Assembly (NCBI RefSeq): GCF_900156505.1
Contig: NZ_FTPR01000001.1
Location: 930,001-994,000, forward strand
Reading direction: 5' to 3'
DNA from: Yoonia rosea
Lineage (GTDB): Bacteria; Pseudomonadota; Alphaproteobacteria; Rhodobacterales; Rhodobacteraceae
DNA length: 64,000 nucleotides
Both the position numbers and the translations under genes were made by a program. This document shows positions 17,772 through 40,825 of the stretch, one piece after another. Every line of letters starts with the position of its first letter. Position 1 is the stretch's first letter. The notes beneath the pieces are model-generated. The model was not told where the DNA came from. It worked only from the letters and a program-made list of their open reading frames with translations, and did no database searches.

Positions 17772-19868
17772 ATGATCACGACCCTCGCCGACGCCCTTGC
17801 CAAACAGGGCTATACTGACCTTACCCCCGTCCAGGAGGCCGTGACGGACGACGCACTCGTCGGGCAGGACCTTCTTGTGTCCGCGCAAACGGGGTCAGGT
17901 AAAACAGTCGGCTTCGGGTTGGCCATTGGTCCCACCATTCTGAACGAAGAGGGCCAGTTCGGCCCGCAGAGTGCGCCGCAGGCGCTGATCATTGCGCCCA
18001 CACGCGAACTGGCGCTGCAGGTCAAACGCGAATTGCAGTGGCTTTACGCGGGTGCCGGTGCAACGCTGGCCTCTTGCGTCGGGGGCATGGATTTCCGCGA
18101 TGAACGCCGCCATCTGGAACGCGGCGCGCATATCGTCGTCGCAACCCCCGGCCGTCTGCGTGACCATATCATGCGCGGCACGATTGACCTGTCCGAGATC
18201 AAGGCCGTCGTGCTGGATGAAGCGGACGAGATGCTTGATCTGGGTTTTCGCGAAGACCTCGAATTCATTCTTGATCAGGCCCCCGCGACCCGCCGCACCC
18301 TGATGTTTTCTGCCACCGTCCCGCCGATGATTGCGACACTGGCCAAATCCTATCAGCGTGACGGCGTCCGGATTGCGACGACCAGCAAGGAAAGCCAGCA
18401 CGCCGATATCGAATACCGCGCGCTGACCGTTGCCAACCATGACATCGACGCCGCCATCGTAAATGTGCTGCGCTACTACGATGCGCCCAATTCCATCGTC
18501 TTCTGCAACACCCGTGCGATGGTCACACGGCTGACCACACGCCTGTCAAACCGTGGCTTCTCGGTTGTGGCCCTCTCCGGTGAACTGACACAATCCGAGC
18601 GCTCCAACGCGCTGCAAGCCATGCGCGACGGGCGGGCCAAAGTCTGTGTGGCGACCGATGTGGCTGCGCGCGGCATCGACCTGCCCAACCTCGAACTGGT
18701 GATCCACGCCGAACTGCCAACAAACGCCGAAACGCTCCTGCACCGCTCGGGCCGGACAGGCCGCGCGGGCCGCAAAGGCATCTCTGCGCTGATCGTGCCC
18801 GCCAAGATGAAGCGGCGCGGTGAAAACCTGCTGAAATGGGGCAAACTGACCGCAACTTGGGCCCTGCCGCCTTCTGCCGAAGAGGTTGCGGCCAAAGACG
18901 AAGAGCGTCTGCTGACCGATCCGGTCTGGTCCGAAGATTTCACCGACGAAGAAATCACATTCGCCGCACGCCTGCTGGAACAGCATGCGCCCGAAAAAAT
19001 CGCCGCGGCCTACCTGCGCCTTTATGCGGGCAAGCAATCGGCCCCCGAGTTCATTTCCGAATACAAAGATGGCCCCGCCGCCAAGGAACGCGCCCCGCGC
19101 GAAGTGAAATCCTTTGGCCCCTCCAAATGGTTCAGCGTCGATATCGGGCGCGAAGGCAAGGCCGAGGCGCGCTGGCTCTTGCCGATGATCTGCAAGGCCG
19201 GCGGGATCACCAAAAACGAGATCGGCGCGATCCGCATCCAGCCCAACGAGACCTTTATCGAGATCTCAGCCCCTGCTGTGCCCGGTTTTCTGGACAGCGT
19301 CGGCAGCGATATGAAGTTGGAAAATCAGGCCACCCTGACTGCCCTTGATGGCGCGCCGCAACTGGGCGAACGCGGTCCGCGCAAGACCAAGCGCGATTAT
19401 GACGATGGCCCGAAGCGCGCGCCCAAGCGCGATTTTGGCGACAAGCCCAAGCGCGACTACGGCGATAAACCCAAACGCCACGCCCCCCGCGATCAGGCCG
19501 CCCCGCCGCCATCGCAACAAGATCATGTACCTGCGATCCAACCGATCCCCGGTGCCGCTGACGACTACAAAGCGCGCAAACCGCGCCACAAACCCGAACG
19601 CCGCGACCATGGTGATGCGCTGACCGAGAAGCGCAGCAAACCACCCTATAAGGGCAAATCTGACGGTAAAAAACCCGCAGGCAAAGGCAAACCGCCTTAC
19701 AGCGCCGACAGCAAGCCGCGCAAACCCGGCGCGGGCAAGCCCGGCGGCAAACCCGCGGGCAATGCCAAGGATACGTCCAAAAGGTTCGTCCCGCCGGGCG
19801 GAAAAGCGAAGCCGCGCAAGGGCTTAGGCAAAGGCGGCAGCGGCGCGCCAAAGCGCGGAAAATCCTAA
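17772..19868 (+). CDS. DEAD-box RNA helicase with DbpA-like and basic C-terminal parts
   Basis: A 698-residue RNA helicase. Core motifs in order: AQTGSGKT, PTRELALQ, ATPGRL, DEADEML, SAT, VFCNTR, TDVAARGID and HRSGRTGRAG. Residues about 445-525 look like the DbpA RNA-binding domain (KWFSVDIGREGKAEARWLLP). The last 170 residues are basic and low-complexity, with repeated RDYGDKPKR-type units and many KPG/KP motifs, probably an RNA-binding tail. Expected roles are ribosome assembly and cold-condition RNA unwinding (DeaD/CsdA-like). Confidence 0.92.
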   Translation: MITTLADALAKQGYTDLTPVQEAVTDDALVGQDLLVSAQTGSGKTVGFGLAIGPTILNEEGQFGPQSAPQALIIAPTRELALQVKRELQWLYAGAGATLASCVGGMDFRDERRHLERGAHIVVATPGRLRDHIMRGTIDLSEIKAVVLDEADEMLDLGFREDLEFILDQAPATRRTLMFSATVPPMIATLAKSYQRDGVRIATTSKESQHADIEYRALTVANHDIDAAIVNVLRYYDAPNSIVFCNTRAMVTRLTTRLSNRGFSVVALSGELTQSERSNALQAMRDGRAKVCVATDVAARGIDLPNLELVIHAELPTNAETLLHRSGRTGRAGRKGISALIVPAKMKRRGENLLKWGKLTATWALPPSAEEVAAKDEERLLTDPVWSEDFTDEEITFAARLLEQHAPEKIAAAYLRLYAGKQSAPEFISEYKDGPAAKERAPREVKSFGPSKWFSVDIGREGKAEARWLLPMICKAGGITKNEIGAIRIQPNETFIEISAPAVPGFLDSVGSDMKLENQATLTALDGAPQLGERGPRKTKRDYDDGPKRAPKRDFGDKPKRDYGDKPKRHAPRDQAAPPPSQQDHVPAIQPIPGAADDYKARKPRHKPERRDHGDALTEKRSKPPYKGKSDGKKPAGKGKPPYSADSKPRKPGAGKPGGKPAGNAKDTSKRFVPPGGKAKPRKGLGKGGSGAPKRGKS

Positions 19869-19987
19869 AACCCGCCCAATTGGTCACATTTATGTCACGC
19901 CAACCCCATGTTGTGGGCACAGGACCCTAGTGCTGTGGCTGCAATCATTCCTATCATCAACCCACGAGCAAGCTAAAGGACCAGCAA

Positions 19988-20095
19988 ATGGCCACTGCAA
20001 CATCAACGCCCCGCACAGCAGCACCAACACCACCGGCACCGCAGCAACAGGGCAAACCGACAGCGCCCGTCTATACCGATTACGCGAGTATCTAG
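19988..20095 (+). CDS. Candidate 35-aa small protein
   Basis: ATG at 19988 is preceded by AAAGGA (19975-19980) at seven bases, an excellent ribosome site. The product, beginning MATATSTPRTAAPTPPAPQQ and ending VYTDYASI, is rich in Ala, Thr and Pro and has no membrane segment. It is followed 18 bases later by the structured terminator-like RNA at 20114. No homologue is recognised. The ribosome site plus a terminator make a real transcript plausible. Confidence 0.5.
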   Translation: MATATSTPRTAAPTPPAPQQQGKPTAPVYTDYASI

Positions 20096-20113
20096 CCGTT
20101 CACGCGCGCCAAT

Positions 20114-20184
20114 GGCCGGTGAGGCCACGCCCGGACCGATCGCCCTCCCCGATCAGCCGTCCGGAACCTCACTGGCCCTTTTTT
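20114..20184 (+). ncRNA. Three-stem hairpin with CCCUCCC loop and T run (candidate sRNA or 3' UTR element)
   Basis: The outer stem pairs 20114-20124 with 20167-20177 (11 bp, one G-U); the middle stem pairs CCGGAC 20131-20136 with GTCCGG 20159-20164; the inner stem pairs GATCG 20138-20142 with CGATC 20150-20154, exposing a seven-base loop CCCTCCC. Six T residues follow (20179-20184), so it can act as a Rho-independent terminator. The C-rich loop is complementary to Shine-Dalgarno sequences, as in the alphaproteobacterial CCUCCUCCC (cuckoo/CcsR) sRNAs; the relationship is an inference. Confidence 0.6.
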
Positions 20185-20207
20185 CGCAGCCTCGCTAATA
20201 TCCGGGG

Positions 20208-20540
20208 ATGGCGGAACTGACTTCCATCAAGAATATCGGACCGGCGTTTGCAGCGTCTTTGAAAGCTGTGGGGATAACCACAGCCGAAGAACTGCGCGCG
20301 CTTGGCGCAGATGCGGCTTATGCAAAGATGCTGGAAGGCGGCACCCGCCCCCATTTCATCGGCTATTACGTGCTGCATATGGCGCTGCAAGGGCGGCCGT
20401 GGAATGACTGCAAGGGCGAAGAGAAAAAGGCGCTGCGTAAGCAGTTTGACCAGATCAAAGCGGGCAGCTTTGATCAGGACCGCTCGGAACTGGAGCGCAT
20501 CCTGAACCAAATCGGCGTTGTGCCAACAGTGCGTGAATAA
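20208..20540 (+). CDS. TfoX C-terminal domain protein
   Basis: A 110-residue protein matching the TfoX/Sxy C-terminal domain: a helix-hairpin-helix-like opening LTSIKNIGPAFAASLKAVGI, then TAEELRALGADAAYAKML, and a C-terminal helical region. The N-terminal TfoX domain found in competence regulators is absent. Stand-alone TfoX-C proteins are common in alphaproteobacteria; role unknown, possibly nucleic-acid binding through the hairpin-helix motif. Confidence 0.8.
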   Translation: MAELTSIKNIGPAFAASLKAVGITTAEELRALGADAAYAKMLEGGTRPHFIGYYVLHMALQGRPWNDCKGEEKKALRKQFDQIKAGSFDQDRSELERILNQIGVVPTVRE

Positions 20541-20716
20541 CGAATCATGCCATGCCTCCCGCGCCGCTCATCGATACAATCGCACCGAAAACGCGCCATT
20601 GTATCCATGCTGAAGGCTAACATAGTGCGTTCGGGGCATGATTTAGACGATTTCACACACTAGCACTCGTCGCCAACGTGTCGCTCCTTGATTCTCGCAT
20701 GATATGATGTTGTGTA

Positions 20717-20755: not shown

Positions 20756-21244
20756 ATGACACGATTTCCGGAAGAAGCACATTTAGCGTGCAAGCCTGCA
20801 GGCAAATCAGCCAGATCTGGTGGCTTTTCCTTTATAAAGTCGTTCCGTGAAGACGAGCGCGGCGTCGTCTCTATTGATTTCGTGGTTGTGGCCGCGTTGG
20901 CGACCATGCTTGGTATCAGCATTTCTGTTGCGATCACGAACGGCGTAACAGAATTTGCGTCAACAATGGAAGATGCACTGAGCGCAACGCCCCAAGCCCC
21001 AGGTAACGGTGGCGGCAACGGCGGTAATGGCGGCGGCAACGGTGGGAACGGCGGCGGCAACGGCGGTAATGGCGGCGGCAACGGCGGTAATGGTGGCGGC
21101 AACGGCGGTAATGGCGGCGGCAACGGCGGTAACGGTGGCGGCAACGGGAACGGAAACAGCAACGGGAACGGCAACAGCAATGGTGGCGGGAACAACAGCA
21201 ACGGAAACGGTAACAGCAGTGGTGGTGGCGGCGGGAATAGCTAG
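20756..21244 (+). CDS. Flp-pilin-like protein with Gly/Asn repeat tail
   Basis: A 162-residue protein. Residues 32-60 (EDERGVVSIDFVVVAALATM and following) resemble a type IVb prepilin: a glycine cleavage site, D at +5 and F at +6 where Flp pilins have E and Y, then one hydrophobic helix. Residues 83-131 are seven copies of GNGGGNG, followed by an Asn/Ser/Gly tail to the C-terminus. No tad/cpa secretion genes are nearby. A CtrA-type site precedes the gene. Function is unknown; a surface or matrix polymer is one possibility. Confidence 0.75.
   Translation: MTRFPEEAHLACKPAGKSARSGGFSFIKSFREDERGVVSIDFVVVAALATMLGISISVAITNGVTEFASTMEDALSATPQAPGNGGGNGGNGGGNGGNGGGNGGNGGGNGGNGGGNGGNGGGNGGNGGGNGNGNSNGNGNSNGGGNNSNGNGNSSGGGGGNS
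21002..21148 (+). repeat. Seven 21-bp tandem repeats coding GNGGGNG
   Basis: Seven in-frame units of 21 bases, differing mostly at third codon positions (GGT/GGC/GGG, AAC/AAT). The array is coding, so copy number changes would lengthen or shorten the protein by 7 residues without frameshift. Confidence 0.95.
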
Positions 21245-39854: not shown

Positions 39855-40825
39855 CACTTTTTCCTTTTGTTCCAGAGTGAAAGACAGCAAAGCTCCATTG
39901 CGATATGTGCCCCCGCAATCGCGGTGGCGCCCGTGGTATCATAGGGCGGCGAAACTTCGACCACATCCCCCCCCACCATGTCGATCCCCGCGATATCCCG
40001 CAGGATCGCGGCGGCCTGCCAAGACGCCAGACCACCCCAGACAGGCGTGCCGGTGCCCGGCGCAAAAGCGGGATCAAGTGCGTCAATATCAAAGCTCACA
40101 TAGGTCGGATGATCGCCCACGCGTGCTTTGATCTGTTCGGCCACCCAACCGCTGCCCTTTTCGTGGCACCTGCGGGCGGCAATATAGGGCATCCCCAAAT
40201 AGTCTGCGCATTCCGTCCGAATGCCGATCTGGATCGAGCGCGTCACATCAACAAGGCCCAGTTTCACCGCCTTATACATCATCGTGCCGTGATCAATGCG
40301 GGCCATATCGTCATCCGGCCAAAGATCGGAATGGGCGTCAAACTGCACCACCGACATCGGCCCGTATTTTGCGGCATAGGCGCGCAGGATCGGCAGGGTG
40401 ATAAAGTGATCACCGCCCAAGGTCACCGCTCCGCAGCCCTGCCCCAATATTCCCGCTGTATGGGCCTCTACCAGATCGGGCACACCGGCCACATTGGCAT
40501 AATCAAAGGCCATATCGCCATAATCGGCGATGGCGAACTCGCTCAATGGATCAAACCCGTCCCAGCCGTAAGGCGGATCATAAGGTTGCAGGCTTGACGC
40601 CTCGCGGATCGCGCGGGGCCCGAAACGGGTGCCCGGGCGGTGGGTGACGGCCTGATCGAATGGCACACCTGTGACGGCCAGATCAAAGCCCGTCAGATCC
40701 TTGGTGTACATCCGGCGCAAGAACGACGTGGCCCCGCCAAAAGCGTTTTCATAGGCCAACCCACGCCGATCTACCGCCGTAAATGCCCCGTCGACCGCCT
40801 CTTTCGCTTTATCAAGTGTCACCAC
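39854..40825 (-). CDS. Ureohydrolase (agmatinase family), first of pair
   Basis: A 323-residue paralogue of the next gene, with complete metal motifs: LGGDHFITLP, QFDAHSDLWPD and SFDIDALDPAFAPGTGTPV. The two differ in the N-terminal 70 residues and substrate loops, which suggests different substrates or a mixed complex. The intergenic repeat lies just upstream of its start, after an M20 amidohydrolase gene on the same strand. Confidence 0.88.
   Translation of the reverse strand: MVTLDKAKEAVDGAFTAVDRRGLAYENAFGGATSFLRRMYTKDLTGFDLAVTGVPFDQAVTHRPGTRFGPRAIREASSLQPYDPPYGWDGFDPLSEFAIADYGDMAFDYANVAGVPDLVEAHTAGILGQGCGAVTLGGDHFITLPILRAYAAKYGPMSVVQFDAHSDLWPDDDMARIDHGTMMYKAVKLGLVDVTRSIQIGIRTECADYLGMPYIAARRCHEKGSGWVAEQIKARVGDHPTYVSFDIDALDPAFAPGTGTPVWGGLASWQAAAILRDIAGIDMVGGDVVEVSPPYDTTGATAIAGAHIAMELCCLSLWNKRKK

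Follow-up and report, generated by a model that had tools for sequence, protein, structure and literature searches.

The question raised by this locus is whether the hairpin lying between a very small open reading frame (ORF) and a tfoX-like gene in Yoonia rosea only ends a transcript, or whether its exposed C-rich loop also makes it a regulatory RNA. In Rhodobacter CcsR and the rhizobial cuckoo sRNAs, loops of the anti-Shine-Dalgarno type are reportedly exposed after the gene of a small stress protein (DUF1127). A preliminary description of the window (that is, the whole stretch of 64,000 nucleotides analyzed here) had placed at 20114-20184 three stems of 11, 6, and 5 bp with a CCCTCCC loop and six T residues, starting 18 bases 3′ of a 35-codon ORF with a ribosome site, and all of these features were found where it had put them. 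The + strand has been taken as the transcript since the T-run lies 3′ of the stem on that strand. The outer stem comprises 11 pairs, including one G-U (20114-20124 with 20167-20177), and the inner stem five pairs (GATCG, 20138-20142, with CGATC, 20150-20154), both of them supported by folding and by covariation; the middle stem has six pairs (CCGGAC, 20131-20136, with GTCCGG, 20159-20164) and is supported by folding and by the alignment of close relatives. The apical loop, CCCUCCC in the RNA (20143-20149), is anti-Shine-Dalgarno-like in sequence and conserved as a loop, and the T6 tail (20179-20184), also conserved, marks a putative intrinsic terminator.

Segment 20105-20190 reaches a minimum free energy of −37.2 kcal/mol, compared with −26.69 on average (sd 3.21) for 200 shuffles, none of which was equally stable; the centroid (−37.1) has the three-stem form, whereas the middle stem is rearranged in the minimum free energy structure. 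The putative transcript of 266 nt, folded at full length, is of ordinary stability (z −0.77; 39 of 200 shuffles equally good). A terminator scan of 19800-20600 did not report the hairpin, presumably because the stretch inside the long outer stem greatly exceeds the loop of 3-8 bases that the scan allows. The motif CCCTCCC alone is not enriched in the window (three occurrences vs about eight expected), so that the case has to be built on the position of the loop and on its conservation. An unlikely alternative, yet one of some weight, is that the structure is an intrinsic terminator and nothing else, which separates the microprotein gene from tfoX and whose C-rich loop has no role in trans. A first point against plain termination is that, among 73 terminator-like hairpins collected by a fold-based script on both strands of the window (many of them surely not terminators), CUCC occupies the apical loop of one alone, that at 20114-20184.

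The gene preceding the hairpin is a protein gene, as established by sequence comparison. The ORF (19988-20095, + strand) encodes a Pro-rich microprotein ending in TDYASI, and the ribosome-binding site AAAGGA (19975-19980) stands 7 bases before its ATG. tfoX was matched in 214 of the 295 family genomes searched, and the upstream region was read in 110 of these 214 (the 30 best tfoX loci and 80 more; two of them in the genus of the window). An ORF with the tail pattern D-(Y/F/W/L/H)-A-(S/A/M/T/G)-(I/L/F/V/M) precedes tfoX in 65 of the 110 loci vs two on the reverse strand (shuffle mean 0.1, maximum 1), and the family tail can be written D-(Y/F/W)-A-S-(I/L) at the carboxyl end. Among 106 distinct tails, S is found in 96 and I in 92, D and A being fixed because they were selected on; the position two before D, which was not selected, holds F, Y, or I in every one of the 106. 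Pairwise differences over the last five codons number 3840, 5848, and 13744 at first, second, and third positions, with 9778 synonymous vs 6133 other codon differences (these counts over sequence pairs are not independent of one another). Five members, including that of the window, matched no Pfam or NCBIfam family at E 1, in agreement with the earlier remark that the ORF is not DUF1127-like. When nine members were searched against 5.8 billion proteins, 51 matches were obtained at E up to 1, the named ones being annotated as hypothetical protein (e.g., in Yoonia sp. R2-816 and Roseobacter sp. CCS2).

Within the genus, conservation of the hairpin is wide and incomplete. Relatives of the element were recovered by DNA search in 16 of 60 genomes, all within the genus, and a covariance model trained on 16 genus sequences matches 38 of 56 genus genomes, that of the window included (16 training genomes and 22 others). 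In each of the 38, the best match ends 21-37 bases upstream of tfoX on the same contig and strand, and genome G018 contains an additional weak match at another place. The tfoX gene itself is present in 55 of the 56. Of the 17 genomes with tfoX and without a model match, L207 alone keeps the CUCC hairpin and the T-run, which the model missed, and the other 16 lack CUCC over the interval from the ORF to tfoX (over the final 110 bases if no ORF was found). With 18 of 56 genomes unmatched by the model and 16 lacking CUCC, the CUCC loop is dispensable in some species, and the many relatives without any such element fit a hairpin that serves for termination only. A T5 run precedes tfoX in four of the CUCC-less genomes (L209, L212, L203, and L215); in L209 and L203 it follows a hairpin, and these two terminator-like structures devoid of CUCC again favor plain termination. 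The microprotein seems more durable than the hairpin, as its tail is kept in 12 of the 17 genomes without a model match. Two of the loci might represent stages of decay of the element, namely L209, with its T-run hairpin without CUCC, and L212, with a remnant-like stretch ending CTGGTCATTTTT. In a further group (L193, L198, L202, L206, L208, L210, L214, and L216) a gap of 36-54 bases, free of any hairpin, separates the end of the ORF from tfoX; given this gap, the microprotein gene and tfoX may be co-transcribed there.

The check by covariance model for compensatory changes, proposed in the preliminary description, came out in favor of the structure. For this purpose, the model was used to align 32 distinct sequences, drawn from the genus and from five other genera; this alignment leans towards the model itself. 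In this model-fitted alignment, standard pairs occupy 94.6% of the pair cells, vs at most 51.6% for slid structures, and two-sided changes are found in 11 of the 17 pairs (43 cells), a level reached by none of 500 shuffles, while the loop is kept. Pairing of the middle stem is confined to the closest relatives, where the matched changes CCGGAC/GTCCGG, CCAGAC/GTCTGG, and CCAGAG/CTCTGG occur. When 38 distinct sequences were each folded singly, CUCC appeared in the apical loop of 35, a frequency biased by the fact that some sequences had been gathered for a CUCC motif near a T-run. The closing stems of these loops differ, and include GATCG/CGATC, CATCG/TGATG, CATTG/CAATG, AGCGC/GTGCT, and GGCGC/GCGCC; in the three remaining sequences (L025, L031, and L046) the CUCC motif lies farther upstream in the spacer. 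Structure, covariation, and loop conservation are thus established by sequence comparison. A CUCC loop that stays constant while its stems change speaks against termination alone, and a constant CUCC-type loop on covarying stems is what characterizes the general kind of the anti-Shine-Dalgarno hairpin RNA.

The same locus in other genera points in this direction as well. Among the 65 loci with a microprotein tail, 42 have an ORF-tfoX spacer of at least 60 bases, and a CUCC-type motif is found in 14 of the 15 spacers with a T5 run (the exception is L095) vs none of the 27 without, an association that speaks against a mere terminator. Two or more motifs of the CUCC type, of which one lies in the terminator, are present in nine spacers (L027, L028, L029, L030, L033, L046, L112, L114, and L124), and the longer UCCUCCUCCC stands at the equivalent locus in L028 and L029, both from other genera. 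Forms with two hairpins, the first of which is not a terminator, have been found in L028, L029, and L112, and within the genus also in L217 and L222; such additional CUCC hairpins upstream of the terminator are a further argument against a role restricted to termination, and the one hairpin present in the window may reflect a reduction. The covariance model, searched family-wide, matched 10 of 295 genomes. Six of these matches precede tfoX (the own genome, L055, and L057-L060). The other four (L061-L064) lie elsewhere and without the ORF, and were set aside as they look like chance or other terminators.

The downstream gene helps to define the limits of the unit. tfoX (20208-20540, + strand; TfoX_C, PF04994) is the conserved neighbor of the element, has no clear Shine-Dalgarno site, and is preceded, 12 bases before its ATG, by the −10-like TAATAT (20196-20201, + strand). 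Comparison over the genus places TANNNT 12 bases before the ATG in 25 of 27 loci and 13 bases before it in the other two. The tfoX gene is probably its own unit, its mRNA probably being leaderless with TANNNT as the −10 element; if so, tfoX can be transcribed without read-through, and the microprotein unit most likely ends at the hairpin. The position of the hairpin between two units, the second having a −10-like element of its own, is also what would be expected of a plain terminator. Another explanation places the function in cis, with the loop pairing with the ribosome site or start region of its own mRNA, or with the hairpin shielding the mRNA 3′ end, in order to set the output of the microprotein or of tfoX. 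We regard such a role as quite improbable: the hairpin does lie in cis, and some loops contain UCCU, complementary to the AGGA of the ribosome site of the ORF, but the CCCUCCC loop of the window pairs with few bases of AAAGGA, tfoX lacks a clear Shine-Dalgarno site and looks leaderless, and two hairpins are present in several relatives.

Upstream of the ORF lies a direct repeat with a period of 11 bp, GTCAC-N6-GTCAC (19883-19898, + strand), recognized by pattern match as a possible ChvI-type operator. A motif search seeded with the window repeat gave an 11-bp direct repeat with a consensus near GCCACATTTTTGCCACATT, whose summed score over 64 loci was 988, whereas 20 shuffles reached at most 535 and averaged 496 (7.7 per locus); seven of the 64 loci fall below that mean per locus. 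The strict pattern occurs in 19 of 65 loci in forward orientation and in one in reverse (shuffle mean 0.23, maximum 2); when spacings from 7 to 15 were scanned, 11 was found in nine of the 65 and 15 in one, the others being absent. Over the genus and the family the repeat takes the form GCC/GTC-N8-GCC/GTC, with the GTC form in the window and the GCC form in many other genera, and this comparison establishes it as a conserved sequence. A second match in the window, GTCACAGGTGTGCCA at 40675 on the minus strand, could be due to chance. A sigma-70 consensus scan of 19800-20600 found no promoter. Elsewhere in the genome of the window, a response regulator, a Sensor_TM1 histidine kinase, and an HprK-type gene are consecutive, and this row has been read as a chvI-chvG-hprK cluster with the help of its flanking genes, which we take to be pckA and rapZ. 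The region before the chvI-like regulator, between it and the pckA-like gene (L257:2115-2426), contains GCCACGAAAACGCCATATTTGC, a repeat of the same 11-bp kind on the pckA strand. The 11-bp spacing is that of the Sinorhizobium meliloti ChvI consensus, N-GCC-N8-GCC as quoted in the available part of PMC9731502; the Caulobacter ChvI consensus given there differs (TTGC-N3-GCAA). As for CenR, it was set aside as the regulator since its motif, TGA-N8-TGA in the accessible text of PMC9275681, does not fit. These sequence matches make ChvI control of the microprotein unit likely.

How the element relates to known RNAs can be answered in part. The initial suggestion was of a related or convergent anti-Shine-Dalgarno sRNA, or a 3′ UTR element; a CcsR- or cuckoo-like 3′-UTR element fits best, while relationship to the Rfam models of CcsR1 (RF02791) and ar14 (RF02344) found no support, the region being unmatched by either at E up to 5. 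In a search of Rfam as a whole, no family passed the gathering cut-off in this region, and relaxing the threshold to E 5 brought up just two eukaryotic families, both at chance level; the related hairpin of L029 scores 23 bits with CcsR1, for which the cut-off is 65.3. The CcsR/CIN1 locus, also of Rhodobacterales, resembles that of the window in having hairpins with CCUCC-type loops after a small ORF, the last of them a terminator, and in its anti-Shine-Dalgarno logic. It differs in encoding a DUF1127 protein, whereas the window encodes a non-DUF1127 microprotein, and in its longer hairpin array, compared with one hairpin in the window and two in some relatives. In place of the CCUCCUCCC that defines CcsR/CIN1 loops, the window has CCCUCCC, and L028 and L029 have UCCUCCUCCC. 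Control differs too, with an RpoHI/RpoHII promoter for ccaF1, according to the available sections of PMC10253847, and a ChvI-like repeat in the window.

The genome of the window contains six DUF1127 matches, all away from the window ORF. In L050 (G000:C1, near 161700) a DUF1127 gene is followed by seven predicted hairpins, six with CCUCCUCCC and one with UCUCCUCCC, which score 54.1 bits with ar14 and 30.7 bits with CcsR1, both below the Rfam cut-offs. Since a CcsR-type array is thus present elsewhere in the genome, the window element is an additional locus with another protein. The L050 array is longer than the CcsR1-4 array of Rhodobacter sphaeroides.

Other RNAs share single traits with the element. 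In ar14/NfeR1 (RF02344) an anti-Shine-Dalgarno motif is likewise carried in loops on variable stems; NfeR1 has its own promoter, and ar14, as far as the accessible text of PMC10746234 goes, has three hairpins, each with CCUCCUCCC on differing stems, in contrast to the 3′-UTR location, CCCUCCC loop, and single apical hairpin of the window. Cuckoo RNAs, compared by description, also have a conserved loop motif on helices of unconserved sequence, and differ in the two to four hairpins described in the part available of PMC4504443, against one apical hairpin in the window and two in some relatives. Caulobacter ChvR is an RNA under ChvI-ChvG, judging from the available portion of PMC6237742; however, it comes from an 84-nt gene of its own before recF, with a single reported target (chvT) and no microprotein. 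A very improbable explanation is that the element is the counterpart of UdsC, the RSP_7527 3′-UTR sRNA of R. sphaeroides. UdsC, an RNA of about 70 nt, derives from the 3′ UTR of a hypothetical small ORF, and the layout, including the terminator at the end, is alike in the available text of PMC9779115, PMC8625941, and PMC6238624, but its terminator comprises only nt 39-67, its last 29 nt, and its promoter is RpoHII-dependent in the first two of these. Moreover, none of three Cereibacter-type genomes (Cereibacter johrii, Luteovulum azotoformans, and Cereibacter ovatus; of unstated completeness, R. sphaeroides not among them) has a tfoX match with the query that matched 214 of 295 family genomes, or the tail in the one exact pattern searched. 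UdsC is probably another locus. A search of the literature on CcsR, cuckoo, CCUCCUCCC, RSP_7527, ChvI, and Roseobacter sRNA/TfoX gave no title or abstract start describing the locus, many subscription papers being outside its coverage, and the main text of a Paracoccus sRNA paper (PMC5107571) does not mention tfoX, DUF1127, or CcsR.

The reading that we consider rather probable from the sequence data is that, within a microprotein unit of the ChvI type, the element serves both as the terminator and as an anti-Shine-Dalgarno RNA in the 3′ UTR. The scheme that follows is inferred as regards the regulator, termination, processing, target pairing, and any cooperation between microprotein and RNA. 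The repeat 5′ of the small ORF would be the site of action of an OmpR/PhoB-type regulator, with ChvI as the likeliest candidate, and the mRNA of this stand-alone unit, ending at the hairpin, would encode a microprotein of about 35-45 amino acids whose carboxyl tail hardly varies. The hairpin would stop transcription and expose CCCUCCC, with its CUCC core. Either cut off or kept as a stable 3′ end, it would act as an anti-Shine-Dalgarno RNA whose loop pairs with GGGAGG-type ribosome-binding sites, and the translation of several mRNAs would be damped, as in the proposals for CcsR, ar14/NfeR1, and cuckoo RNAs. This mode of action is plausible: the genome contains 124 GGGAGG-N4-10-ATG sites vs 19 for the reversed pattern, and among those listed three lie opposite the CcsR-type array. 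With so many candidate partners, the effect would be expected to be broad and weak, or else specificity would have to come from an additional determinant, and the shortness of the CCCUCCC loop, which implies poor target choice, counts against the anti-Shine-Dalgarno reading.

A bolder proposal, possible but on balance somewhat doubtful, is that the locus represents a second, independent class of protein plus anti-Shine-Dalgarno RNA in Rhodobacterales, in which ChvG-ChvI would respond to envelope stress, an undescribed microprotein would take the place of the DUF1127 protein (CcaF1) with its tail as a binding handle, and the RNA would damp mRNAs led by GGGAGG. If this were true, the association of RNAs mimicking the ribosomal anti-Shine-Dalgarno end with a tiny protein would have arisen at least twice in this group, with different proteins and regulators, and it could be asked whether the pairing of protein and RNA at the CcsR locus is functional or incidental. 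A conserved family of microproteins, recognizable by a short signature at the carboxyl terminus, would also become open to testing, and translation control in Rhodobacterales would be tied to envelope stress through the ChvG-ChvI system. Finally, a 162-aa ORF with a long Gly-Gly-Asn repeat tail was noted downstream of tfoX at 20756-21244 of the window; its hydrophobic start is presumably TadE/Flp-like.
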